Shown here: positions 1 through 10,562 of the stretch, in pieces | Layout of the letters: each line of letters opens with the position of its first letter | Numbering within the stretch: the first letter of the stretch is position 1 | Source: Ferrithrix thermotolerans DSM 19514 | GTDB lineage: Bacteria; Actinomycetota; Acidimicrobiia; Acidimicrobiales; Ilumatobacteraceae | Length of the DNA: 10,562 nucleotides | Direction of reading: 5' to 3' | Assembly (NCBI GenBank): GCA_945878705.1 | Contig: CAMCUE010000019.1 | Location: forward strand, 1 to 10,562 | Notes under the pieces: model-generated | The model's input: only the letters and a program-made list of their open reading frames with translations | Databases searched by the model: none | Told to the model about the DNA's origin: nothing | Translations under genes and position numbers: made by a program

Positions 1-1
1 T

Positions 2-604
2 GAACTAGTTGCATCGGGTCACACTGTTGCCGTAATTGATAGAAAACCGGACGCTTTTAAGCGTTTGGGCGAAAACTTTTCAGGTATCACGATTGCAGGC
101 ATCGGCTTTGATCGTGACGTTTTGCAAGAAGCCGGTATTGAAAAAGCACAGGCAGTTGCCGCGGTTACTAATGGTGACAATTCAAATATTTTGATTGCTC
201 GTGTTGCTCGAGAAAAATTTGGTATCGAAAAAGTAGTTGCACGAATTTACGACCCAAAACGTGCCGAAATCTATGAGCGCCTTGGTGTCGCCACAGTTGC
301 GACAGTCAAGTGGACATCAGAACGTATCTTGCGCCGAATTTTGCCAGATGTTTCCAGAATTGAGTGGACAGACCCAAGTTCTAATGTGGTTTTAGTTGAG
401 CGCGAATTCCCAGATAGTTTTGTCGGTAAAAAAATTGCCGACATTGAATTGTCCGCTGCACGAATTTCCGCGCTACGTAGACTTGGCTCTGCAATAGTTC
501 CAGATGACGGCACAATTATTCAACAGGGTGATGTCGGATACTTCATTGTTGAAGTGAATTCATTGAATCAATTAGACAGTCTTTTAAAGCAGGGCACCTC
601 ATGA
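2..604 (+). CDS. ceoB: TrkA-type potassium uptake regulatory protein (CeoB-like), 5' truncated
   Basis: Cytoplasmic regulator of a Trk/Ktr K+ channel: an N-terminal RCK_N domain binds NAD(H) or nucleotides and an RCK_C domain follows. The frame is open from base 2, so the first in-window start-like codon (TTG at 65) is not the real start. Aligning ELVASGHTV here with EELVAAGHDV in the next gene suggests that about 16 codons, including the GxGxxG dinucleotide loop, lie upstream of the window. Visible RCK features are VIDRKPDAF (end of beta-2), TIAGIGFDRDVL, AVAAVTNGDNSNI and KVVARIYDPKRAEIYERLG; the RCK_C part spans about the last 75 residues. The stop overlaps the start of the second TrkA gene as ATGA (601-604), so the two are translationally coupled. 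A tandem TrkA pair is the usual actinobacterial arrangement (ceoB-ceoC). The family assignment is firm; the ion partner lies outside the window. Confidence 0.93.
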   Translation, partial: ELVASGHTVAVIDRKPDAFKRLGENFSGITIAGIGFDRDVLQEAGIEKAQAVAAVTNGDNSNILIARVAREKFGIEKVVARIYDPKRAEIYERLGVATVATVKWTSERILRRILPDVSRIEWTDPSSNVVLVEREFPDSFVGKKIADIELSAARISALRRLGSAIVPDDGTIIQQGDVGYFIVEVNSLNQLDSLLKQGTS

Positions 605-1269
605 AAGTAATCGTTGCGGGTGGAGGAAGCGTTGGGCGCTTCACGGCAGAAGAACTAGTTGCCGCTGGGCACGATGTCTTGCTTATCGAAAATGATCGTG
701 CAGTATTTCGAGACTATGGCAAGGCCGAAGAAGCCAAAGGCGTGCGTTGGCATCTTGGCGATGCATGTGATGTTGAAGTGCTTCGTGCCGCTGGTGCATC
801 TGACGCTGATGTCGTCGCCGCTGTAACCGGTGACGACGAAGATAATTTGGTTGTCTCACTTCTTGCAAAACAAGAGTTCGGTGCGCCAAGAGTTATTGCT
901 CGGGTGAATAATCCAAAAAATCATTGGATGTTTAACGAGATGTGGGGTGTAGATGTTGCCGTTTCAACACCACACTTAATTACAAGTCTTGTTCAAGAGG
1001 CAGTTTCTGTTGGCAACTTTGTCAAACTTATGGATTTCGCTGGTGGTAAAGCAGAATTAGCAGAAGTTACGCTTGCTGAAAATTCGCCGGCGATCAACAA
1101 GACGCTCAAAGATTTGAAATTTCCTCGAAGCGCGACAGTTGTGGCAATTGTTCGTCACGAGGTTGTACTCGTGCCCGAGAGCGACACAATTTTGCGAGCA
1201 GGCGACGAAGTTATGGTCTTAATAACAGAAGACGCAGAACTTGCAATTCAAAAAATTCTCGTTGGCTAA
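601..1269 (+). CDS. ceoC: TrkA-type potassium uptake regulatory protein (CeoC-like)
   Basis: Second RCK protein of the pair, 222 aa, the normal full length. The dinucleotide-binding loop GGGSVG is at residues 7-12 and the acidic end of beta-2 (LLIEND) is near residue 30; AVTGDDEDNLVVSLLA and RVIARVNNPKNHWMF are typical RCK_N helices. The RCK_C domain covers about residues 140-222 and ends in DEVMVLITEDAELAIQKILVG. It should bind NAD(H) or ATP and form, with the upstream paralogue, the gating assembly of a Trk-type K+ transporter at the inner face of the membrane. The ATG shares bases with the previous stop (ATGA). It runs toward a convergent OB-fold gene, the same order and orientation as ceoB-ceoC-(DUF3159)-Rv2694c in Mycobacterium, supporting the CeoC label over a generic TrkA one. 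Confidence 0.94.
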   Translation: MKVIVAGGGSVGRFTAEELVAAGHDVLLIENDRAVFRDYGKAEEAKGVRWHLGDACDVEVLRAAGASDADVVAAVTGDDEDNLVVSLLAKQEFGAPRVIARVNNPKNHWMFNEMWGVDVAVSTPHLITSLVQEAVSVGNFVKLMDFAGGKAELAEVTLAENSPAINKTLKDLKFPRSATVVAIVRHEVVLVPESDTILRAGDEVMVLITEDAELAIQKILVG

Positions 1270-1280
1270 ATACAAATTAG

Positions 1281-1297
1281 TTCTCGCTAAGCGAGAA
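1281..1297. terminator. Bidirectional hairpin between convergent genes
   Basis: Perfect 7-bp inverted repeat TTCTCGC-TAA-GCGAGAA located 11 bp after the ceoC stop. It also contains the stop codon of the minus-strand OB-fold gene (TAG, at 1289-1287). One hairpin can therefore serve both converging transcripts. Neither side has a long T-run (the minus side has only a scattered ATTTGTATTT), so this is a weak intrinsic terminator or an mRNA end-stabilising hairpin. Confidence 0.6.
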
Positions 1298-1640
1298 GTG
1301 TGTAAGCAGGATTCAACACGACAGTGCGATCAGCATCTTGATGTGGAACGCCATCAATCATGATGCATCGGCCTAGGTCAATCCCGGGGATATTGCGTCG
1401 TCCACTAAAAATAACCACTGCCTCTCCTGTGCCGTCGCTGATCACAACTTCAACTGCTGGTATCCCGCTGCGTGGCTTGGTTCGCATGCGTTTTACTTCT
1501 CCGGCAATTTTTGTGCGCGTTCGCAACTGCAAGTCTTCAAGTGCAGTGAAGCCAGTGTCTTTAAACCGAAAACAAAGTCGCTGTGTGTCAATTTCTTGCG
1601 TGTCAGCGTTAAGCCGTTTGCCGTAGTCGCGAATACCCAT
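1287..1640 (-). CDS. OB-fold nucleic acid-binding domain protein (Rv2694c-like)
   Basis: Small cytoplasmic protein of 117 aa. The start is taken at the ATG at 1640-1638 (MGIRDYGKRL), because the family N-terminus begins there and the ATG overlaps the preceding thioredoxin stop by one base (TGATG), implying translational coupling. A longer open frame runs upstream to an ATG at 1859, but that part is out-of-frame reading of the thioredoxin gene and gives an Arg/Cys-rich, non-family sequence. From about residue 38 (RTRTKIAGEVKRMRT) the protein follows the OB-fold pattern: AVEVVISDGTGEAVVIFSGRRNIPGIDLGRCIMIDGVP, ending NPAYTLLA. FSGRRNIPGIDLGR closely resembles the WLGQRRIPGIDSGR segment I recall from mycobacterial Rv2694c. 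Nucleic acid binding is inferred from the fold; the role is unknown. It is probably expressed from the thioredoxin promoter near 2200. Confidence 0.88.
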   Translation of the reverse strand: MGIRDYGKRLNADTQEIDTQRLCFRFKDTGFTALEDLQLRTRTKIAGEVKRMRTKPRSGIPAVEVVISDGTGEAVVIFSGRRNIPGIDLGRCIMIDGVPHQDADRTVVLNPAYTLLA

Positions 1641-2188
1641 CAGCTCGTTGCCAGTCTGTTCAATTCCTGTTCTAATTCTAAATCTGAAAGCACACCGATT
1701 CTTGTCGTGACAATGCCATCTTTGGCGATAAATACCCAAGCCGGTTGGTACGGCACATCGAATCGTGCAAAAATTTCGCCTGCCGAGTCGTTGATGTTCG
1801 TAAAGGTGAGACCGTTTTCGTTGACAAAATCTTGCATGTCTCCACCGCTGCCGTTCCATGCGACGCCAGTAACTTGAACTTTGCCCTTAAAAGTTTTGTA
1901 TGCAGCCTCGACCGAGGAAGACTCAGATTTGCATGCCCGTCAACCTGGTGCCCAAAACCAGAGGGCAAGTGGCTGCGACGCTAAAACTTTCGTGCTATCA
2001 AAAGTTGCACCACTCAACAGTGTCGCGGTAAAAATTGCTGGTGATGATGATGCCTGTGTCGCTTGTGTCTGTTGATCTGAAGTTTTTACAGGGTCAGTTT
2101 GTTTTGCAGAATCTGAACCGCAGCCAAAAACTGTGAGAATTAAAATAGATGCAAATATTTGTCCACTTAGTTTCAATGACTTGTTCAC
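1640..2188 (-). CDS. Predicted selenoprotein: DsbE/MPT53-like thioredoxin-fold lipoprotein with Sec-X-X-Cys active site
   Basis: A single 182-residue protein if the TGA at 1942-1940 is read as selenocysteine. The GTG start (2188-2186) opens a lipoprotein signal peptide: Lys residues, a hydrophobic core (IFASILILTVFG) and a lipobox-like VFG-C with the lipidated Cys at residue 23, then a Ser/Thr/Gln-rich linker to about residue 50. The thioredoxin fold follows: beta strand LALWFWAPG, then residue 83 = UGA, then RAC (Cys86) KSES, i.e. U-X-X-C replacing CXXC. Downstream is AYKTFKGKVQVTGVAW, MQDFVNENGLTFTNINDSAG and the cis-Pro motif FDVPYQPAWVFI (Pro149), all strongly reminiscent of mycobacterial DsbE/DsbF (MPT53). 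Both halves are in the same frame with no indel, and only the catalytic first Cys is replaced. It is probably an extracytoplasmic thiol-disulfide oxidoreductase. The alternatives are a TGC/TGT-to-TGA sequencing error or a nonsense pseudogene; the SECIS-like hairpin argues against both. Confidence 0.85.
1900..1934 (-). promoter_or_regulatory. Bacterial-type SECIS element for the UGA at 1942-1940
   Basis: Read on the minus strand, the RNA just after the UGA can fold into a basal stem AUGCA (1934-1930) with UGCAU (1904-1900), and an upper stem CCUC (1917-1914) with GAGG (1909-1906) closing an apical loop GGUC (1913-1910). Two more pairs, AG (1923-1922) with CU (1905-1904), can stack under the upper stem, leaving UCUU (1921-1918) bulged; in that case the basal stem shortens to AUGC/GCAU. 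The loop begins 27 nt after the UGA. A G at the start of the apical loop, a GGUC loop and U bulging on the 5' side are features of the E. coli fdhF SECIS bound by SelB. The hairpin lies inside the coding sequence, as in bacteria generally. Folding energy was not computed. Confidence 0.72.
1940..1942 (-). other. In-frame TGA, predicted selenocysteine codon (Sec83)
   Basis: On the minus strand the codons read TGG GCA CCA GGT TGA CGG GCA TGC, giving W-A-P-G-U-R-A-C. In thioredoxin-fold oxidoreductases the residue after WAP-x is the nucleophilic, solvent-exposed Cys of CXXC, and selenocysteine replaces precisely this residue in known Sec-containing thioredoxin-like proteins. The resolving Cys (Cys86) is kept. 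There is no other stop between the GTG at 2188 and the TGA at 1642-1640. Confidence 0.82.
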
Positions 2189-2195
2189 GTTGATA

Positions 2196-2201
2196 AGAGT
2201 A
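2196..2201 (-). promoter_or_regulatory. Candidate -10 box (TACTCT) for the selenoprotein/OB-fold operon
   Basis: TACTCT fits the actinobacterial TANNNT consensus and ends 7 nt before the GTG start codon at 2188, so transcription would begin at or next to the GTG (leaderless mRNA). No Shine-Dalgarno sequence precedes the GTG. The -35 region is weak. The 7-nt spacing is the same as at the phytanoyl-CoA dioxygenase gene in this window. Confidence 0.45.
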
Positions 2202-2249
2202 ACTCATTTAGGGCGAAATAATCTGAGATCACCCGTAGCCTGATTGTTT

Positions 2250-2342
2250 ATGAGCACTAGAAAGTTGATATTTTTTGCATTACTTTGTGGCGTGGCTATT
2301 TTGTTAGCGGGCTCTTTGCAACTGTTCTTAATGTCACGGTAG
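2250..2342 (+). CDS. Possible 30-aa single-pass membrane small protein
   Basis: An ATG opens a short frame encoding MSTRKLIFFALLCGVAIL followed by LAGSLQLFLMSR and a TAG. This is a textbook small membrane peptide: a basic N-terminus, about 20 hydrophobic residues, and a terminal Arg. A TANNNT box (TAGCCT, 2236-2241) lies 8 nt before the ATG, the leaderless arrangement seen at other genes here; no Shine-Dalgarno is present. It is divergent from the selenoprotein gene and precedes lpdA by 75 bp. I do not recognise a family. Chance hydrophobicity in an AT-rich spacer is the main alternative. Confidence 0.35.
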   Translation: MSTRKLIFFALLCGVAILLAGSLQLFLMSR

Positions 2343-2382
2343 ATCTGCGATAAGTCATAGTTCGGTCACGAACCTAAACGGC

Positions 2383-2388
2383 TACGAT
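2383..2388 (+). promoter_or_regulatory. Candidate -10 box (TACGAT) upstream of lpdA
   Basis: TACGAT fits TANNNT and lies 29 nt before the TTG start of lpdA, leaving room for a short leader with a purine-rich ribosome site (AGAAAGAGAAA, 2405-2415). A -35-like TTCGGT lies at 2361-2366 with a 16-bp spacer, which is a weak match. This would be the promoter of the lpdA-E2-lipBA cluster. Confidence 0.4.
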
Positions 2389-2417
2389 AAACAAGGCATT
2401 CACAAGAAAGAGAAACC

Positions 2418-3818
2418 TTGGCAGACCAATTTGATCTCGTTGTAATCGGCGGAGGTCCTGGTGGCTACGCATCAGCCTTTTATGCAGCATCCTGCGGAAT
2501 GAGCGTTGCGTTAGTCGAACGCGACACAATCGGTGGAACATGTTTAAACCGTGGTTGCATCCCAGCAAAGGCATTTTTAGAAACCGCTGCAGCCAATCGC
2601 CATGTCGCCCATGCTTCAGAATTTGGGATCAACGCAACTTCGTCGGGCGTCGATTTTTCGGTTAGCCAAGCACGTAAAGCGCGAATCGTCGACGGCTTGG
2701 TTAAAGGATTAACCGGATTAACAAAGTCAAAGAAAGTTACATACTTGCTCGGCACCGGATCACTTGAAACGGGCCGAGTTGTAAGTGTTCAACTTGCTGA
2801 TGGCACCTCAAAAAAAATTCAAGCCACGAATGTGATTTTGGCTAGTGGCTCAGTGCCTCGCACAATTAAGGGTTTTCCGATTGGCGGATCAATCATGACC
2901 TCGGATGAGGTACTGATGTTAAACACGATTCCAAAACGGATTGCAGTAATTGGTGGTGGGGCAATCGGTTGTGAGTTCGCGTCGACATTTGCAGATCTTG
3001 GTTCGCAAGTCACGATTCTCGAAGGTGCACCGAAAATTTTGCCTGGTCTCGACCCTGATGTTGCAAACGTCGTTGTTAAGAGTTTCACTAAAAAGAAAAT
3101 CAACATTAAAACAGGCATCGTCGTAACTGGTCAAAGTTCTTTGCCAGATGGTTCGACACAAATAACTTTTGCGACGGGTGACCCGCTAATTGTTGACGTC
3201 GTGATTATTTCAATTGGGCGTCGTGCGTTTTCTGATGCGTTAGGTCTTGTTGGTACGAATGCAAAAGTTGACGATCGGGGTTTTGTTGTTGTCAATGAAT
3301 ATTGTCAAACAGCAGAGCCGGGCGTTTATGCAATCGGCGACTTAATTAACACTCCACAACTTGCGCATGTTGCATATGCCGAAGCAATTTTGTCTGTGAA
3401 ACATATGCGTCATGAAGATGCGACGCCGATTATGTATGACCGTGTGCCGTGGGCAATTTATTGTCATCCAGAAGTTGCTTGGGCGGGGCCATCAGAAGAG
3501 CAGGCTCGTGAAGCAGGTCATAACGTCATTGTCGCCAAGCATCAATTTCGTGCCAACTCTAGGGCGATGATTCTTGGTGAGATAGATGGGCTTGTCAAAG
3601 TAATTGCGAAAAAAAATGCTGACGGTTCTGCTGGTCAAGTTCTTGGTGTGCACATGGTCGGGCCCTGGGTTACAGAGCAACTAGCCGCAGGCTATTTAGC
3701 CGTTAACTGGGAAGCGTCGGTTGACGAAATCGCCGAATTCGTGATGCCGCACCCAAGTTTGAGTGAACTGTTTGGAGAGACGGTTCTCTCACTAACTGGC
3801 AGAAGTTTTAATGCGTGA
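2418..3818 (+). CDS. lpdA: Dihydrolipoyl dehydrogenase (E3)
   Basis: Cytoplasmic FAD-dependent E3 that reoxidises the dihydrolipoyl group of 2-oxoacid dehydrogenase E2 proteins and passes electrons to NAD+. It has 466 aa, the family length. The FAD Rossmann motif GGGPGGY is at residues 11-17, the redox disulfide GGTCLNRGCIPAK at 39-51 (Cys42/Cys47), the NAD-binding GGGAIGCE at 179-186, the second FAD motif YAIGD at 304-308, and the C-terminal catalytic base HPSLSE (His445, Glu450) in the dimer interface domain. All catalytic residues are present. The start is TTG, preceded by the purine-rich AGAAAGAGAAA, with no better start nearby: MADQFDLVVIGGG begins exactly where the family does. It is followed 35 bp later by E2, so it is probably co-transcribed with it. 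It may serve several complexes (pyruvate, 2-oxoglutarate, branched-chain). Confidence 0.96.
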   Translation: MADQFDLVVIGGGPGGYASAFYAASCGMSVALVERDTIGGTCLNRGCIPAKAFLETAAANRHVAHASEFGINATSSGVDFSVSQARKARIVDGLVKGLTGLTKSKKVTYLLGTGSLETGRVVSVQLADGTSKKIQATNVILASGSVPRTIKGFPIGGSIMTSDEVLMLNTIPKRIAVIGGGAIGCEFASTFADLGSQVTILEGAPKILPGLDPDVANVVVKSFTKKKINIKTGIVVTGQSSLPDGSTQITFATGDPLIVDVVIISIGRRAFSDALGLVGTNAKVDDRGFVVVNEYCQTAEPGVYAIGDLINTPQLAHVAYAEAILSVKHMRHEDATPIMYDRVPWAIYCHPEVAWAGPSEEQAREAGHNVIVAKHQFRANSRAMILGEIDGLVKVIAKKNADGSAGQVLGVHMVGPWVTEQLAAGYLAVNWEASVDEIAEFVMPHPSLSELFGETVLSLTGRSFNA

Positions 3819-3840
3819 CAAACTTAGAATTAAAACGATA

Positions 3841-3845
3841 GAGAG
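3841..3845 (+). promoter_or_regulatory. Ribosome binding site of the E2 gene
   Basis: GAGAG sits 8 nt before the ATG at 3854, within a purine-rich run. It is one of the few recognisable Shine-Dalgarno-like sites in the window, consistent with an internal operon gene, in contrast to the apparently leaderless first genes. Confidence 0.5.
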
Positions 3846-3853
3846 AAAATCAA

Positions 3854-5275
3854 ATGGCTGACATCACACTTCCACAACTAGGCGAAACTGTTACCGAAGG
3901 AACAATCACACGTTGGTTTAAAAAAGTTGGCGATGCTGTTGCCGCTGACGAACCTTTGTTCGAAGTCTCGACAGACAAAGTCGATACTGAAGTTCCATCT
4001 CCTGTTGCTGGCACACTGACTGAAATTCGTGTCAAAGAGGGCGAAACAGTTTCTGTCGGAACCGTAATTGCAGTCGTTGGTTCGGCTAACGCGAGTTCTG
4101 CGCCTGCGCCAGTAGTTCAAGCGCCGGTAGTACAACCTGCGCCATTAGTTGTGCCGGTTGCACCTGCGCCAGTTGCTCAAGCACCCGTAGCGCAAACCCA
4201 GCCAATTCGTGCCGCACAACCAGTTGCCAGTGTTGCAACTGCAACACGAACACCAATCTCGGCGGCCGCGTCAAACAAGTTACTTTCACCAGTTGTGCGC
4301 CGACTTGTTTCGGATCACGGCATTGATGTCAACACGCTTGTTGGTACTGGTCCTGGAAGTCGAATCACGCGTGAAGATGTTTTGGATTTCATTGACAAAA
4401 ATGGATCGGCGCCACAAATTATGGCACCAGTTGTCGCAGCGCCCGCGCCAATTGTTCAAGCGACTGCGCCAATTGTTCTTGCGCCTGCGCCAGTTGCAGA
4501 AGTGCCAAAAGTTGCCACACCAACATCACAGCCGCCGGCGCCAAAGTTCACGCAAAGCTCAGAGCGCGAAACTGTTATTCCGCTCACGAAAATTCGCAAA
4601 CTCACTGCAGCGCACATGATTATGTCGCAGGCAGTTAGCGCGCATGCTTTCAGTGTCGTCGAAGTTGATTATGCAAATGTCGATGCAACCAGAAGCGAAG
4701 TCAAAGATCAATGGAAGCAAGCCGAAGGCTTTACGCTGACGTATCTTCCGTTTATCGCTCGCGCAATTGTTGATGCCCTTGCCGAGTATCCAAATCTCAA
4801 TGCGAGTATCGAAGCCGACAAGTTGGTCGTTCACAATTATGTCGACCTGGGCATTGCTGTTGATCTTGAATTCAATGGATTGCTAGTGCCTGTTGTACGC
4901 AGCGCGGACGGCAAGCGGTTGCGTGCAATCGCTCGCGAAATTTCTGATCTTGCAACGCGTGCTCGCGGGCGAAAATTAACCCCAGACGAAATTCAAGGTG
5001 GAACATTTACGATTTCAAATAACGGATCTGCCGGTTCTGTTCTAACGATGCCAATTATCAATCAGCCACAGGTTGCAATTATGTCAACCGATGCAATTGT
5101 ACGTAAGCCAGTTGTCGCTCGACTTAGCGATGGCTCAGAGAGCATTGCAATTCATCCAGTTGGCAATCTTGCAATGAGTTGGGATCACCGTGCGTTCGAC
5201 GGAGCATACGCAGCCGGATTTCTCGCAAAAGTAAAACGAGTTCTTGAAACACAGGATTGGTCAGCGGAGATCTAA
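3854..5275 (+). CDS. sucB: 2-oxoacid dehydrogenase E2 (dihydrolipoyl acyltransferase, SucB/DlaT-like)
   Basis: Core acyltransferase of a 2-oxoacid dehydrogenase complex: it transfers the acyl group from its lipoyl arm to CoA. It has 473 aa. A single lipoyl domain spans residues 1-77, with the modified lysine in STDKVDTE (Lys42). An Ala/Pro/Val/Gln-rich flexible linker covers about 83-119. The E1/E3-binding domain covers about 140-180 (LLSPVVRRLVSDHGIDVNTL, GSRITREDVLDFI). A second Ala/Pro linker spans 189-230, and the catalytic domain runs from about 240 to the end with SWDHRAFDG (His445, Asp449). A GAGAG ribosome site lies 8 nt before the ATG. The substrate cannot be fixed: annotation pipelines usually call it 2-oxoglutarate E2, but SAHAFSVVEVDYANVDATR and GFTLTYLPFIARA also resemble branched-chain-type E2, and mycobacterial DlaT beside lipB-lipA serves pyruvate dehydrogenase. 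No E1 gene is in the window. Confidence 0.93.
   Translation: MADITLPQLGETVTEGTITRWFKKVGDAVAADEPLFEVSTDKVDTEVPSPVAGTLTEIRVKEGETVSVGTVIAVVGSANASSAPAPVVQAPVVQPAPLVVPVAPAPVAQAPVAQTQPIRAAQPVASVATATRTPISAAASNKLLSPVVRRLVSDHGIDVNTLVGTGPGSRITREDVLDFIDKNGSAPQIMAPVVAAPAPIVQATAPIVLAPAPVAEVPKVATPTSQPPAPKFTQSSERETVIPLTKIRKLTAAHMIMSQAVSAHAFSVVEVDYANVDATRSEVKDQWKQAEGFTLTYLPFIARAIVDALAEYPNLNASIEADKLVVHNYVDLGIAVDLEFNGLLVPVVRSADGKRLRAIAREISDLATRARGRKLTPDEIQGGTFTISNNGSAGSVLTMPIINQPQVAIMSTDAIVRKPVVARLSDGSESIAIHPVGNLAMSWDHRAFDGAYAAGFLAKVKRVLETQDWSAEI
4100..4210 (+). repeat. Ala-Pro-Val linker repeats inside E2 (first linker)
   Basis: Imperfect short repeats built on GCGCCTGCGCCAGT-like units encode APAPVVQAPVVQPAP-type sequence (residues 83-119). 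A second block of the same composition lies at about 4418-4543 (residues 189-230). These are the flexible, extended linkers that let the lipoyl domain swing between E1, E2 and E3. They are coding low-complexity sequence, not a mobile repeat. Confidence 0.6.
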
Positions 5276-5278
5276 TTC

Positions 5279-6898
5279 GTGTCGCGCGAAGATACAAAAG
5301 GTACAACGAAACTTAATATTCGTTGGCTTGGCAAAGTGCCTTATCGCGAAGCACTAGCAGTGCAAACTGCGATGTTCTCGCAGTCACCAAATCAGCATTT
5401 GCTAATGCTCGAGCACCCACATGTTTTTACTTATGGTCCGAGTGCTGATCTGAAAAACAATTTGAAGTGCGACCCAAAACAAGTTGGCGCAGAACTCGTA
5501 AAAGTCAATCGTGGCGGTGACATCACGTACCACGGCCCCGGCCAACTAGTTGTGTATCCGATACTTTCGCTTGAAGCGAAGCATGGTGTTGGCGGGCCAG
5601 CCGATCTGCAGGCATATGTTTGCGGTGTTGAGCAACTTGTGATTGACACACTTGCTCATCTTGGTGTGGTTAATGCTGGTCGTTTCGCTGGCTATCCGGG
5701 TGTTTGGATTGATCATCAGTCGGCAACTCCGAAAAAGATTTGTGCAATCGGTGTTCGAGTTTCGCGTGGGCGCACGATGCATGGGTTTGCATTAAATGTT
5801 TCGACAGATCTCAGTTATATGCGTGAGCACATCGTGCCTTGTGGCATCGCCGAGTACCCAGTTACATCGCTCGCCGAACTTGGCTTCAACTTTTCAGTTC
5901 AGCAAGTTGCCGATGTGGTTGCAAAATTGGCAGCCAAGCGTTGGACAAGTGGCGAATTTGATCGACACGATGTGGCGTGGACAGCAGCAACAGAAAATCC
6001 TAATGCCGAGTCAAATATCCAGATCACCGAGCGCAAACCTGATTGGTTGCGTCCTCATGTGAGTCATGGTGCTGAAGTCTTGGCAACGAAAAAAACTTTG
6101 CGTGACTTGAATCTTGTAACTGTTTGTGAAGAGGCTGGTTGTCCGAATTTGTCAGAATGTTGGGCTGACGGCACCGCAACAATGATGGTGCTCGGCGAGC
6201 GATGCACGCGTGCATGTGGCTTTTGTTTAATTGACACTCGCAAACCACTTGCGCCCGATGTAAGTGAACCACTTCGTGTTGCTCAAGCCGTTCTTCAAAT
6301 GAAACTCGAACATGCTGTTTTGACAATGGTCGCACGCGATGATTTAGCCGACGGCGGAATGGCGCATGTTGCACAATGCGTTCGTGAAATTCGACGTATC
6401 TCACCGAAGACACGTGTTGAAACTTTAATTTCAGACGCCAAAGGCAGTGATGCACTCGACGCAATTTTTCTTGAGCGACCAGATGTTCTGAATCACAACA
6501 TCGAAACAGTTGCGCGGTTACAACGCCAAGTTCGCCCGTCGGCGGGTTATGCGAGAAGTTTGTCTGTCTTAGCTCGTGCTCGCGCCGCAGGTCTAGTCAC
6601 GAAATCTGGTTTCATGTTGGGTCTAGGCGAAAGTAAAGATGAAGTTGAAGCAACGTTGATTGACCTGGCATCTGTTGGTGTGCAGATTGTCACAATCGGC
6701 CAATATTTACGACCCACGCAAGACCATCTGCCTGTTGTGCGATGGGCAGAGCCGGCTGAGTTCACGAACTATGCCGAGTTTGGTGAAAAACTTGGCATTA
6801 AACATGTTGAAGCGAGTCCGTTGACAAGATCTAGTTATCATGCCAAGCATGCAGCCGAGCAAACTGTTTCTGTACAACTCGTGAGTATTCGATCATGA
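5279..6898 (+). CDS. lipB-lipA: LipB-LipA fusion: octanoyltransferase plus lipoyl synthase
   Basis: One 539-aa open frame holding both steps of lipoate assembly. Residues about 10-225 are LipB, which moves octanoate from acyl carrier protein to the target lysine: RGGDITYHGPGQ (78-89), catalytic Lys153 in KKICAIGVRV, MHGFALNV, and catalytic Cys188 in IVPCGIAEYPVTSL. Residues about 250-539 are LipA, a radical-SAM enzyme that inserts sulfur at C6 and C8: auxiliary cluster cysteines 283, 288 and 294 (CEEAGCPNLSEC), the SAM cluster CTRACGFC (309, 313, 316), and C-terminal RSSY (517-520). All key residues are intact in both halves. A linker of roughly 25-30 residues (AATENPNAESNIQ...) joins them without a stop, whereas in most actinobacteria lipB and lipA are separate neighbours. 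The GTG start lies 3 bp after the E2 stop, so it is co-transcribed. An in-frame internal GTG (residue 232) could also start a separate LipA. Confidence 0.94.
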   Translation: MSREDTKGTTKLNIRWLGKVPYREALAVQTAMFSQSPNQHLLMLEHPHVFTYGPSADLKNNLKCDPKQVGAELVKVNRGGDITYHGPGQLVVYPILSLEAKHGVGGPADLQAYVCGVEQLVIDTLAHLGVVNAGRFAGYPGVWIDHQSATPKKICAIGVRVSRGRTMHGFALNVSTDLSYMREHIVPCGIAEYPVTSLAELGFNFSVQQVADVVAKLAAKRWTSGEFDRHDVAWTAATENPNAESNIQITERKPDWLRPHVSHGAEVLATKKTLRDLNLVTVCEEAGCPNLSECWADGTATMMVLGERCTRACGFCLIDTRKPLAPDVSEPLRVAQAVLQMKLEHAVLTMVARDDLADGGMAHVAQCVREIRRISPKTRVETLISDAKGSDALDAIFLERPDVLNHNIETVARLQRQVRPSAGYARSLSVLARARAAGLVTKSGFMLGLGESKDEVEATLIDLASVGVQIVTIGQYLRPTQDHLPVVRWAEPAEFTNYAEFGEKLGIKHVEASPLTRSSYHAKHAAEQTVSVQLVSIRS

Positions 6899-7017
6899 AC
6901 ATCACGATGCGCAAAATAAATCGCGCTATGGTCCATTTGTAATGAACACTCGACAGCAAATCGTTGACGTAGTAACTGATTATCAAGAAGGTCGACTAGT
7001 TAAATGATCAATGTCAA
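6899..7017 (+). other. 119-bp spacer with overlapping mini-frames
   Basis: The spacer contains two tiny frames in tandem: 6895-6942 (15 aa), whose ATG overlaps the lipB-lipA stop as ATGA, and 6942-7007 (21 aa, MNTRQQIVDVVTDYQEGRLV plus K), whose ATG overlaps the previous stop as TAATG. A TTGACG at 6964-6969 could be a -35 box, but no convincing -10 follows. I recognise no family; these may be chance frames or a degraded gene. Confidence 0.25.
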
Positions 7018-8139
7018 ATGACTATTAGCAAAACTTTAAGTTCAAGTGCGCTTTATGCTTCGCGAATCTCGCGTGTGCGCCAAGAGATGCAACGCCGCTC
7101 AATTGACGCCACATTGCTGAGTATCGGCCATGATTTGCCGTATCTAACTGGTTATTACGCAATGCCCCTCGAGCGATTAACAATGCTTGTTGTCACGCAC
7201 GAGTCGGTGGCGGCGTTAGTTGTGCCAAGACTTGAAGCCCCGCGAGTGACGCCATTTGATGACGTGTTTCGTATTGTTCCTTGGGGTGAAACTGAGAATC
7301 CAGTAGCAATTGTCGCCAAACTTTTGAATGACGCCAAAACTATTGCAGTTGGCGATCAAATGTGGGCAAGGTTTTTGGTTGAGTTGATGAGTTTTGTAAC
7401 GAATGCAAAATTTGTCCGCGCTGTTGATGTTGTCGGTCCAATGCGCATGGCCAAAGATGTAAATGAGATTGAGGCGCTTCGTTTAGCTGGCGCCGCAGCC
7501 GATCGTGTAGCGATGCAACTTCAGGCCGGCGAAATTGATCTTGTCGGTCGCTCAGAAGCCCAAGTCTCAACAGATATCTCGGCGAGATTAATTGATCAGG
7601 GCCATGATGTCGTTAATTTCGCAATTGTCGCCGCAGGCGAAAATGCTGCAAGCCCGCATCACCATGCCGGCCCACGAGTTATTCAAAAAAATGAAATCGT
7701 ATTATGCGACTTCGGCGGCACAATGAACGGCTATTGCAGCGACATCACTCGATGTGTGTTTGTCGGTACACCATCTCGAAAAATCACTAGTGCGTATTCT
7801 GTTCTGCACGCGGCTCAAGCCGCTGGCGTTAAAGCTGGCGTGGTCGGTGCAACATGTGAGTCAGTCGATGCAGCAGCGCGCAGGATTATTGATGATGCTG
7901 GGTTCGGCGATTTTTTCATCCATCGCACGGGTCACGGCATTGGAATGGAAGCGCACGAAGACCCTTACATGGTCAGCGGCAACAAGTTGACAATTGTTGC
8001 AGGTCATGCGTTTAGTGTCGAGCCAGGTATTTACTTGCCAGGCAAATGGGGAATGCGTCTTGAAGACATTGTTGTCGCCACCGATGCTGGCCCAGTGTCA
8101 ATGAACAATGTTGATCATTCGTTAGTGATTTTGAATTAA
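7018..8139 (+). CDS. M24 family metallopeptidase (Xaa-Pro aminopeptidase/PepP-like)
   Basis: Cytoplasmic dinuclear-metal aminopeptidase of the pita-bread fold, predicted to release an N-terminal residue ahead of proline. It has 373 aa. An N-terminal creatinase-type domain (about 1-140) includes IDATLLSIGHDLPYLTGY. The catalytic domain (about 150-373) carries all five metal ligands: Asp231 (LCDFGG), Asp242 (CSDITR), His306 (HRTGHGIGMEAHE), Glu335 (FSVEPGIYLPG) and Glu349 (MRLEDIVV). There is no signal peptide. The ATG at 7018 is taken because family homology (SRISRVRQEMQRRSIDATLLS) begins shortly after; there is no Shine-Dalgarno. Its stop overlaps the start of the next gene by one base. The true substrate may be a Pro-dipeptide or a non-peptide, since creatinase-like paralogues share this fold. 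Confidence 0.93.
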   Translation: MTISKTLSSSALYASRISRVRQEMQRRSIDATLLSIGHDLPYLTGYYAMPLERLTMLVVTHESVAALVVPRLEAPRVTPFDDVFRIVPWGETENPVAIVAKLLNDAKTIAVGDQMWARFLVELMSFVTNAKFVRAVDVVGPMRMAKDVNEIEALRLAGAAADRVAMQLQAGEIDLVGRSEAQVSTDISARLIDQGHDVVNFAIVAAGENAASPHHHAGPRVIQKNEIVLCDFGGTMNGYCSDITRCVFVGTPSRKITSAYSVLHAAQAAGVKAGVVGATCESVDAAARRIIDDAGFGDFFIHRTGHGIGMEAHEDPYMVSGNKLTIVAGHAFSVEPGIYLPGKWGMRLEDIVVATDAGPVSMNNVDHSLVILN

Positions 8140-8864
8140 TGCGTCTCGATGCGGCCACATTTTTATTGCAGTGGGCGACGGGTGGTATCGCGTTTTTGTG
8201 GTTCACACTTCGTAGTCAAGAGATTTCGTCTGGTTACTCAAAACTATTGCGCGGTGTATTTGGCTCGCTTGCAATTTTTGCGGTTGCCGCGGGTTTCTTT
8301 TTTGACAAAGTTCTAATCCGTGAACTCGCCAGCATTGCCGTCGCTTTAACTGCTTTTGCGACACTGGCCAAAAAATCTGCAAAATTTGATTTGGTTGCGG
8401 TGGCAATCGGCGCAGTCGGATTAGTTGCTTCCGTAGTTGCAAACAACAGTGCAAATTTTGTTGATTTGTTGCGAGTAGTTGTTGGTGCGGCATTTCTTGG
8501 TGCGGTCACAGATTTGATGTTGCTCGGACACTGGTATCTAGTGCAACCAGGCATGACTCGAAAACTTCTCAATGAATTAACGAACACACTGTTGATTATT
8601 TGGCCACTCGAAATTGCAGTAATGCTTTTACCAACCGGAATGATCAGCGTGCTCAACGGCACGATTGATGACGGATGGAACGGCATCCTTGGATATTTCT
8701 GGGTCGGATGTGCGGCACTAACTGGTGTGCTTGCGTGGTTCACTCGCGCCGCTTTGAAAGAGCGAAGTTACTCGGCAGTTATGGCGGCAACTGGTTTGAG
8801 TTATTTGGCGATACTCACAGCATTCGGTACAGATCTTGTTGCGCGCGCAATTCTCGCACTCTAA
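8139..8864 (+). CDS. Multi-pass membrane protein of unknown function
   Basis: 241 aa, mostly hydrophobic, with about eight predicted membrane spans (near residues 6-24, 36-54, 61-77, 84-102, 109-131, 147-166, 180-203 and 212-237). The one segment that looks functionally constrained is TDLMLLGHWYLVQPGMT (124-140), where a span ends in charged and aromatic residues, with a His that could bind a metal or haem; the helix after it (RKLLNELTNTLLIIWPLE) is amphipathic. I do not recognise the family. The ATG shares one base with the M24 stop (TAATG), so it is translationally coupled to the peptidase. No signal peptide or ATP-binding motif is present. The gene ends in an AT-rich inverted repeat. Confidence 0.85.
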   Translation: MRLDAATFLLQWATGGIAFLWFTLRSQEISSGYSKLLRGVFGSLAIFAVAAGFFFDKVLIRELASIAVALTAFATLAKKSAKFDLVAVAIGAVGLVASVVANNSANFVDLLRVVVGAAFLGAVTDLMLLGHWYLVQPGMTRKLLNELTNTLLIIWPLEIAVMLLPTGMISVLNGTIDDGWNGILGYFWVGCAALTGVLAWFTRAALKERSYSAVMAATGLSYLAILTAFGTDLVARAILAL

Positions 8865-8886
8865 TTTTAAATTGTTACAAAATTAG
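8861..8886. repeat. AT-rich inverted repeat spanning the stop of one gene and the promoter of the next
   Basis: CTAATTTT (8861-8868) and AAAATTAG (8879-8886) form a perfect 8-bp inverted repeat around a 10-nt loop. It overlaps the membrane-protein stop codon (8862-8864) and encloses the TTGTTA -35 box of the downstream promoter. It could act as a weak terminator for the M24/membrane-protein operon, or as an operator controlling the next gene. Confidence 0.5.
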
Positions 8887-8900
8887 ATTTCGTCTACTAT
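8872..8900 (+). promoter_or_regulatory. Promoter of the PhyH-family gene (TTGTTA-17-TACTAT), leaderless
   Basis: The -35 TTGTTA (8872-8877) is followed by an ideal 17-bp spacer and the -10 TACTAT (8895-8900), which ends 7 nt before the GTG start at 8908. The mRNA should therefore begin at or right beside the start codon. There is no Shine-Dalgarno, which also supports this GTG as the true start. Confidence 0.65.
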
Positions 8901-8907
8901 CGCCTAT

Positions 8908-10143
8908 GTGAATAGTGATTACAAAGTTGATGACAAGTGGGATGCTGTAACTAAACAGTCGATCAAAGTCGGTCGACAGGGTTGGCATTCGTTGGTGCCA
9001 CCGAATGGTCATGCCAATAGGGCATCTGCAGAAAACTTTAAGTACAACGACAATCCGCTGGGTCTAGATACTCCCGAAAATGAAATTGAGACAACTCCGG
9101 AGCACAGAAATTTAGTTGCGGGAGACCCGTCTTGCGCGGGTTGGACGCGCACGCATGACGATCCAAATGTCGCGCAACTTCGCCAGAAATTGAAACTTAC
9201 AAATGGAATACGCGGACTTGAAGTTGTTTCGCATACAGAAGTTGAACGTGCTGCTGAATTATTTCATCGTGACGGTTTTGTCGTAGTCGCTGATGCAATT
9301 AAACCTGAACAACTCGGACGAATGCGAATTGCTGCCGACCGTGCAATTGATGAGATGCTCGCAGTTGATCCAGACTGTTCAGTGGGCGGTGGTGCAGGTG
9401 GGTTGCCGCATCGTTATTCGTTCGGCAGCAGTTCGGCTTCACGTCACATGTTGCATGCAAGTGAGTGGGTTGAATTAATTGATATGCCGACGACGACGCC
9501 GATAATCACAGCAATTTTTGGTTCGCCAAATTACATCGTGATTGGTGGGGGAGGCGACATTGCGATGCCTGGTTCTATCGAATATCAAGGTTTGCATTCA
9601 GATAACACTTGGGCAGAGCCGCATGATCCGAGCGGGCGAATAACCATGCGCGAGATGCCGGTACCCGCAGTGACAATTAATTTTCCGATGATTGATTTAA
9701 CTCCCGAGAACGGACCAATACGACAGATTCCTGGCACGCAAAATTCACGAGAGCCAATCCCGAGTTTGTACAACGAACCACAGTGGATGAAACTCAGCAC
9801 ACTTTGTCCGGCTCCCGCAGGATCAGCAATCATTCGTGATTTGCGTTGTTGGCACGGTGGAACACCTAATTTGTCGCGCGATGTTCGAGCGATGCCGAAC
9901 ATTGAATATTTTGCGCCATGGTTTCGCAGTGAAGCAGTTGTTCGTTCGATGCCTTACGAGCAATGGAAGTCATTATCGTCGCATGGTCAGCGAATTTCTA
10001 GATATGTAATGTGCGGCAAAGATGAAATCGTGGTTGGCGCCGGTTACATTCATCCGAAATCAAAAATGCGCGAAGAATTTAAAACAAAGCAACTCGCCGA
10101 ACTCGGCGCAGAAGCCGCCGCCGAATACCTTCGCCGCCTCTAG
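8908..10143 (+). CDS. Phytanoyl-CoA dioxygenase (PhyH) family Fe(II)/2-oxoglutarate oxygenase
   Basis: Non-haem iron oxygenase of the double-stranded beta-helix fold. It has 411 aa, longer than many family members because of about 105 N-terminal residues with no recognisable domain. The PhyH domain begins at VERAAELFHRDGFVVVADAI (about 112-131). The facial triad is His230 and Asp232 (GLHSDNTW) plus His316 (CWHGGTPN); Arg324 or Arg327 (SRDVR) would bind the 2-oxoglutarate carboxylate, and the segment IDLTPENGPIRQIPGTQNS precedes the distal His as usual. The last 70 residues (ISRYVMCGKDEIVVGAGYIHP) are extra. The substrate is unknown: the family hydroxylates lipid acyl-CoAs, amino acids, ectoine and secondary metabolites, and nothing nearby decides. 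It has its own strong leaderless promoter, so it is likely a single-gene unit. Confidence 0.9.
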   Translation: MNSDYKVDDKWDAVTKQSIKVGRQGWHSLVPPNGHANRASAENFKYNDNPLGLDTPENEIETTPEHRNLVAGDPSCAGWTRTHDDPNVAQLRQKLKLTNGIRGLEVVSHTEVERAAELFHRDGFVVVADAIKPEQLGRMRIAADRAIDEMLAVDPDCSVGGGAGGLPHRYSFGSSSASRHMLHASEWVELIDMPTTTPIITAIFGSPNYIVIGGGGDIAMPGSIEYQGLHSDNTWAEPHDPSGRITMREMPVPAVTINFPMIDLTPENGPIRQIPGTQNSREPIPSLYNEPQWMKLSTLCPAPAGSAIIRDLRCWHGGTPNLSRDVRAMPNIEYFAPWFRSEAVVRSMPYEQWKSLSSHGQRISRYVMCGKDEIVVGAGYIHPKSKMREEFKTKQLAELGAEAAAEYLRRL

Positions 10144-10157
10144 CTAAACAATTAGCT
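10142..10157. terminator. Hairpin just after the PhyH-family gene
   Basis: AGCTAA-ACAA-TTAGCT is a perfect 6-bp stem with a 4-nt loop starting at the TAG stop codon. No T-run follows, so it is a weak candidate terminator. A second small stem (GCGA-TTTAG-TCGC) lies about 15 bp further on. Confidence 0.35.
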
Positions 10158-10277
10158 GGGCAATCCACTTGGCGATTTAGTCGCTAGCCAGCGAATTCGG
10201 CACAAAACTTGACGTCCACTGCGACAAAAAGTTTACACATTGCGGGCATGATTGAAAATGCTGTATATCTAATCCGA

Positions 10278-10283
10278 TATAAT
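10278..10283 (+). promoter_or_regulatory. Consensus -10 box TATAAT before the XRE regulator
   Basis: A perfect TATAAT lies 6 nt before a GTG at 10290, matching the leaderless geometry of the other first genes here. The preceding 40 bp are very AT-rich. A TTGAAA lies 20 bp upstream, a longer spacer than ideal. An alternative, weaker promoter (TTGACG at 10209-10214, then TTTACA at 10232-10237) would serve the upstream ATG at 10248. Confidence 0.5.
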
Positions 10284-10289
10284 AATAAA

Positions 10290-10562
10290 GTGCCGAAAGA
10301 ACTGTTTTCGAGAAGTCTCATTAGCCGGGCACGACGCGATGCGAATATCTCACAGGCCGAACTTGCGCGAAGAGCGAAGACCAGCCAGGCAGCGATTTCA
10401 ATGTATGAAGCGGGCACACGGTCGCCGACTTTAGATACTTTGCTGCGCATCATTCGAGCTGCGGGTTTTGATTTGCGTATCGGTTTGTCGGGCCCTGATA
10501 CCCACACGATTACTCGTGAGCGGTTTGAAAAAACTCTTGATCCGAAAGTTTTAGAAGAGTTC
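10290..10562 (+). CDS. XRE-family helix-turn-helix regulator, 3' truncated (possible antitoxin)
   Basis: DNA-binding protein whose frame runs off the window end. From the GTG at 10290 it reads MPKELFSRSLISRARRDANI, then SQAELARRAKTSQAAISMYEAGTRSPTLDTLLRIIRAAGFDLRIGL. The helix-turn-helix lies at about residues 20-45 (Q-A-E-L-A-R-R-A-x-x-S-Q-A-A-I-S-x-Y-E-x-G), typical of Cro/XRE domains that bind operators as dimers. The frame extends upstream in phase to an ATG at 10248 (14 more codons), but that stretch contains a consensus TATAAT and is AT-rich, so I prefer the GTG. Short XRE proteins ending AAGFDLRIGL are often antitoxins placed just before a toxin gene; any partner lies beyond the window, so this is only a possibility. 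About 91 codons are visible. Confidence 0.82.
   Translation, partial: MPKELFSRSLISRARRDANISQAELARRAKTSQAAISMYEAGTRSPTLDTLLRIIRAAGFDLRIGLSGPDTHTITRERFEKTLDPKVLEEF

Follow-up and report, generated by a model that had tools for sequence, protein, structure and literature searches.

A single in-frame TGA codon on the minus strand of a 10,562-nucleotide (nt) stretch of DNA assigned to Ferrithrix thermotolerans DSM 19514 (contig CAMCUE010000019.1, positions 1 to 10,562; hereafter the window) raises the question of whether this codon ends a broken gene or specifies selenocysteine (Sec). The initial annotation of this locus had favored Sec, placed at the catalytic position of a DsbE/MPT53-like lipoprotein. 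We assign a probability of roughly 0.93 to a reading in which the gene product is an exported (and probably membrane-anchored) MPT53/DsbF-type thioredoxin-fold thiol oxidoreductase with a predicted Sec as the attacking residue, and this figure excludes the redox direction of the protein. The computed evidence consists of a UGA where the catalytic residue is encoded, conserved coding sequence before and after it, a covarying hairpin, the Sec machinery and a thioredoxin fold, whereas Sec insertion, export and redox direction are what we infer. The features involved are as follows.

1640..2188, minus strand: predicted selenoprotein gene, encoding a 182-amino-acid predicted lipoprotein with a thioredoxin fold and a UxxC active site (translated with TGA as U)
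2120..2188, minus strand: putative signal peptide to the lipobox-like Cys23 (VFG-C), assigned by inspection
1940..1942, minus strand: UGA codon 83 at the first Cys position of CXXC (FWAPG-U-RAC), read as Sec
1931..1933, minus strand: TGC codon 86, the resolving Cys of UxxC, from the translation and aligned homologues
1906..1917, minus strand: putative bacterial selenocysteine insertion sequence (SECIS) hairpin CCUC-GGUC-GAGG, which starts 22 nt after the UGA and has its loop 26 nt after it
1742..1744, minus strand: Pro149 codon at the cis-Pro position (VPYQP), invariant in alignments A1 and A3

The minus-strand frame from 2188 to 1640 carries a GTG start, the one internal TGA, a terminal TGA at 1642-1640 and no other stops. 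A mechanical list of open reading frames (ORFs) splits the gene into segments 2188-1940 and 1837-1640, and the 34 codons between these segments are open and in the same phase. This reading confirms the earlier description of two minus-strand ORFs in one phase parted by a single TGA, and translation likewise bears out the placement of this TGA on the first Cys of CXXC in a 182-residue predicted lipoprotein that retains Cys86 and Pro149. The N-terminus is hydrophobic, and Cys23, which we take to be the lipoprotein site by the lipobox rule, is nearly invariant in alignment A1 (18 rows). The protein matches Pfam family PF00578 with 46 bits (cut-off 26), and an AlphaFold2 model has a mean pLDDT of 84.6, with blocks of 90-98 from residue 51 onward. 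The motif W79-A-P81-G-[U/C]83-x-x-C86 is invariant in alignment A3 (27 rows, with Sec read as Cys), as is P149, presumably the cis-Pro residue whose role is known from thioredoxin-fold proteins.

If the TGA had arisen by nonsense mutation, by decay to a pseudogene or by sequencing error, the frame would be broken and the full protein would not be made. The window by itself, with a stop inside an open frame, is what this explanation predicts, and the loss of the resolving Cys in one relative also fits. However, among 29 genomes of the genus (the window's own included), a single-TGA gene is present in 25, and the TGA column is TGA in all 25 aligned sequences; the gene was not found in the remaining four (G003, G009, G015 and G027), which are 57-82% complete. 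The protein is also conserved 3' of the TGA, where 36 of the 51 invariant columns of alignment A1 are located. In the genus alignment, codon variants after the TGA comprise 136 synonymous and 161 non-synonymous changes, similar to the 30 codons before it (51 synonymous, 64 non-synonymous) and unlike the loosely conserved N-terminus (66 synonymous, 351 non-synonymous). Furthermore, the terminal TGA overlaps by one base the ATG of the next gene, which encodes an OB-fold-like protein. All 25 genus loci preserve this arrangement, each with a stop (TGA or TAA) followed by TGGG that yields the same ATG overlap. The hairpin covaries and the gene co-occurs with SelA, which again argues against a broken frame. 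We therefore consider this explanation to have a negligible chance of being correct, in agreement with the earlier argument that a random nonsense mutation is unlikely to have struck this codon while leaving the rest of the protein conserved.

Comparisons extended to the order Acidimicrobiales (298 genomes) yielded a family match at an E value of 1e-10 in 136 genomes. Every one of the 136 aligned rows from the retrieved loci (duplicates included) has TGA, TGC or TGT in the active-site column, and homologues without TGA at position 83 carry Cys. Thus, both forms that the initial annotation had expected among homologues, Cys and in-frame TGA, are found. Its suggestion that such a protein is unusual in an actinobacterial setting was not upheld, because many genomes of the order carry such genes.

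The hairpin downstream of the UGA was examined by comparison among homologues. A GGTC loop is present in 80 of 83 distinct TGA sequences versus 2 of 15 Cys homologues, a class that includes distant homologues. Over 78 TGA sequences (the rows distinct over 54 nt, out of the 83 distinct over 96 nt), a five-pair structure is 92.1% paired, and 69 cells are changed on both sides compared with a shuffled mean of 20.3, a value reached in none of 500 shuffles. Sliding the pairing partner by 1-3 columns causes pairing to drop to 33.6-56.4%. Stem variants in TGA sequences include CUUC-GGUC-GAAG, CUGC-GGUC-GCAG and CCAC-GGUC-GUGG, and codons +9 to +11 (TCG GTC GAG) are invariant in the genus. A bacterial SECIS model, as given in the available portion of PMC13188914, calls for a loop of 3-9 nt, an upper stem of 4-16 base pairs (bp), G in the first two loop positions, a distance of 16-37 nt from the UGA and a free energy of -7.5 kcal/mol or lower. 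The geometry of the window hairpin (4-nt GGUC loop, 4-bp stem, 26-nt spacing) falls within that of this published model. Certain relatives contain the hairpin in the minimum free energy (MFE) structure of the 54-nt stretch (L034, -13.5; L037, -12.7; L129, -15.1). The case for this putative element is built on sequence comparison, not on folding energy.

A scan of the window against Rfam with E values up to 1 yielded no match. A hairpin model (R1) gives a single strong hit, at E 2.1e-12 or below, in each of 25 genomes out of the 29 of the genus; because R1 contains coding signal and its search scored 150 candidates per genome, it cannot demonstrate that this gene is the sole selenoprotein gene. 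The bare pattern of TGA, 25 bases of any kind and CGGTCG was rejected: it matches the window's own genome 12 times versus 11 times in a reversed control, and this background level makes it unusable for counting selenoproteins.

The machinery for Sec insertion is present in the window's draft genome (1.27 Mb in 205 contigs). SelA is found, SelB adjoins it on the same strand, and both score above their NCBIfam cut-offs; SelD and a tRNA-Sec with anticodon TCA are also found, so all four genes that the initial annotation had named for a search (selA, selB, selC and selD) are accounted for. Across the 298 order genomes, SelA is matched in 183 (181 above the cut-off), including 96 of the 97 genomes with a TGA family match, where this class denotes any TGA among the matches listed, with the position of the TGA checked in retrieved rows only. 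This co-occurrence analysis left 27 of the 136 matching genomes unclassed, and the weakest SelA matches (G046, G056 and G118), which were scored absent, are in neither the TGA nor the Cys-only class. These observations are consistent with a mechanism in which the GGUC hairpin, 26 nt downstream, would recruit SelB with charged tRNA-Sec so that UGA-83 is decoded as Sec. Translation would then continue to the terminal stop, which shares a base with the OB-fold start codon.

A second explanation holds that the UGA is read through as Trp, as Cys, as a mixture or to give a minor regulated product, rather than as Sec. Two metagenome proteins among the matches listed (P0002 and P0003) do have Trp at the Sec position, which probably reflects translation by a pipeline in which TGA stands for Trp. 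A gene caller treating every UGA as a terminator would instead split the gene, and since relatives share the in-frame TGA, ordinary annotation likely cuts such genes in two. The gene itself ends in TGA, so this codon also works as a stop here, which argues against general readthrough. In addition, the genome contains tRNA-Sec (TCA) with SelA, SelB and SelD, homologues without TGA have Cys, and the loop, stem and spacing of the hairpin agree with the model in the portion of PMC13188914 noted above. For these reasons, readthrough with an amino acid other than Sec appears highly improbable.

Several observations weigh against decoding of UGA-83 as Sec. The window's draft is 70% complete, and its Sec genes are spread over three contigs other than that of the window (selA/selB, selC and selD). 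Among 14 control genomes, the RF01852 search for tRNA-Sec exceeds its cut-off in five, and hence is not specific alone, and the SelA search is positive in two. SelA is present in 5 of 12 Cys-only genomes (among the matches listed), one genome that is 83% complete (G206) has the TGA form with no SelA match, and 67 genomes have SelA with no family match, so the machinery must also be used by other genes. One gene from a genus member (retrieved as both L028 and L069) encodes Phe (TTT) at the resolving Cys and keeps the UGA and the hairpin. The loop is missing in three of the 83 TGA rows. Four of the five pairs have two-sided changes, a number not above that of shuffles (195 of 500). The window hairpin is weak as a 22-mer (-4.7 kcal/mol). 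The 54-nt MFE of -10.3 is reached via a competing helix and becomes -6.2 with the hairpin forced, where this 54-nt stretch is not that of the published filter. A 29-nt stretch has a z score of +0.41, with 134 of 200 shuffles folding as well. Among the 83 TGA rows, the hairpin appears in the 54-nt MFE of 44 and in the 22-mer of 75. Lastly, DsbB, which bears on the redox role considered below, was not found in the window's own draft at its 70% completeness.

Other candidate users of the Sec machinery were sought among formate dehydrogenase alpha (Fdh-alpha) proteins. In the genus, 20 of 21 Fdh-alpha matches over 400 bits contain one TGA, spread over 18 genomes; the family cut-off is passed by 1 of 29 genomes, and the search produced no match in the window's own draft. 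The Fdh-alpha-like frames examined (L206 and L207) place the UGA in the context CNRT-U-HAP and have a hairpin whose GGUCU loop lies 18 nt past it. The GGUC loop is therefore shared with a classical type of selenoprotein in these bacteria. Judged by sequence, the family gene is therefore not the sole TGA-containing candidate of the genus.

By sequence and fold, the window protein is nearest to mycobacterial MPT53/Mt-DsbE and DsbF. MPT53 (1lu4) is the best Protein Data Bank (PDB) sequence match (E 3e-24), and fold lists are headed by DsbF and MPT53, although on modelled fold alone MPT53 and ResA are tied. MPT53/Mt-DsbE (Rv2878c, PDB 1lu4) has Cys in the active site WTPW-C-PF-C, whereas the window protein has a predicted Sec in WAPG-U-RA-C; Mt-DsbF (Rv1677, PDB 3ios) also has Cys at this position. 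Two other assignments were rejected, as E. coli-type DsbE/CcmG scores 21.1 bits against a cut-off of 123.15 (TIGR00385), and ResA scores 46.7 bits against a family cut-off of 170, with approximately 22% identity to the window protein. The proposed DsbE/MPT53 assignment accordingly holds in the mycobacterial sense, Mt-DsbE being meant, but not for the E. coli-type DsbE.

We propose that Sec83 and Cys86 would pair as a selenylsulfide on the outer side of the membrane and exchange it with substrate thiols. Whether the protein then acts as an oxidant (a disulfide former), by analogy with its mycobacterial relatives, is close to an even bet. MPT53 and DsbF carry out oxidative folding of hirudin, and insulin is not reduced in the tests described in the available text of PMC3853704. 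The same text proposes DsbD or Rv2877c as partners of MPT53, whereas the DsbD/CcdA transmembrane domain is matched in 0 of 29 genus drafts (4 of which have a completeness of 90% or more and a contamination of 5% or less). DsbB is present in the genus and VKOR has no match there. Our leaning toward an oxidant derives from the hirudin folding by MPT53 and DsbF together with a genus that has DsbB but no DsbD/CcdA or VKOR match. Action of the Sec protein as a reductant (ResA/CcmG-like) or a thiol peroxidase is a serious though somewhat less favored possibility, which the missing DsbD/CcdA domain and the oxidative behavior of MPT53 and DsbF argue against.

Exchange between Sec and Cys appears to have been recurrent in this family. 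A metagenome protein search, in which the 7999 candidates sharing most words were scored and the best 120 of 838 matches were considered, includes nine proteins (P0004-P0012, among the matches listed) with Cys at the site (WAPGC..C) and 42-52% identity. On a tree of 74 hand-picked rows, Cys versus Sec requires 8 changes, at least 7 of which are forced by well-supported branches; the midpoint root leaves Sec gain and Sec loss indistinguishable. Nine actinobacterial Cys proteins, including the MPT53-named P0096 and P0117, form a clade (98/95) among Sec rows. All ten two-TGA loci among the matches listed (L126-L135) encode both active-site residues by UGA (FWAPWUPFURxE or UPHU), and the six of these placed in the tree form one clade (100/99). 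The hairpin loop in these loci is 26 nt after the first UGA and 17 nt after the second, and since both distances are within the published range, one SECIS could serve both UGAs. One locus (L136, G246:C154:58000-64000) carries two copies from this family: a Cys copy (WCSVC) comes first, and a Sec copy (WUSVC) follows immediately downstream.

An ambitious extension, which we regard as doubtful, is that Sec is the ancestral active site of a large exported MPT53-like Acidimicrobiales lineage, that Cys forms elsewhere in actinobacteria (including MPT53) are later replacements, and that a sub-branch gained a UxxU diselenide center with one hairpin for two UGAs. If this were true, the extracytoplasmic disulfide chemistry of a widespread aquatic group would depend on selenium.

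Selenoproteins of this kind have been reported previously. UxxC and UxxU members of PF00578, described as peroxiredoxin (Prx)-like thiol:disulfide oxidoreductases, are already in the lists contained in the available portions of PMC13188914 and PMC9312934, and the window protein shares their Pfam family and UxxC, with UxxU among its relatives. The Prx-like selenoproteins of PF00578, including reference WP_010940744.1, are likened here by published description as far as it is available, not by sequence. The marine Trx-like 1 and Prx-like 1 groups, similarly likened from the accessible description in PMC2398784, which names no host for them, are UxxC proteins of COG0526 or pfam00578 from ocean metagenomes. 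The word stem actinobact is absent from PMC13188914, PMC9312934, PMC12013277, PMC1088965 and PMC2398784; PMC5029168 names Sec-using actinobacteria, and the family of the window protein is not among its available passages. No description of the exported MPT53-type Sec branch or its Acidimicrobiales spread was found in a literature search that had most subscription journals outside its reach, and a search pairing selenoprotein with Ilumatobacter found nothing. The earlier remark, by which UxxC thioredoxin-like selenoproteins were known as a class but a described DsbE/MPT53-type example was not, is qualified by these published UxxC and UxxU proteins of the same Pfam family. Given the published lists, the protein kind is known, and this branch is a well-supported further member.

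The genes adjoining the predicted selenoprotein gene are as follows.

1287..1640, minus strand: next gene, OB-fold-like protein (PF01336, 25.2 bits, just below the cut-off of 27)
2418..3818, plus strand: divergent neighbor, dihydrolipoamide dehydrogenase-like (PF07992/PF02852), near the gene in many relatives

In tblastn searches, the OB-fold start is at offset 0 in every genus locus with a match, as well as in L038/L081 (one gene), L080 and L085; the OB-fold gene was not found beside more distant relatives. The divergent dihydrolipoamide dehydrogenase-like gene is also near the family gene outside the genus (L040, L041, L045, L048, L103, L110, L112 and L136). Elsewhere in the window, a 539-amino-acid plus-strand frame (5279-6898) fuses lipoyl transferase (LplA/B) and lipoyl synthase-like radical SAM domains and has full-length tblastn matches in several genus and family relatives. 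Positions 8908-10143 (plus strand) encode a phytanoyl-CoA dioxygenase-like protein, and 10248-10562 (plus strand) appears by eye to be the start of a helix-turn-helix regulator-like frame at the window end.

If the Sec reading of this gene holds, selenium is put to use by an aquatic group of actinobacteria in an exported protein for thiol exchange, a trait that would be spread across the order, and Sec and Cys would have been exchanged at least several times within one protein family. The occurrence of UxxC, CxxC and UxxU active sites in this one family would constitute a natural experiment on the benefit of Sec in extracytoplasmic disulfide chemistry.
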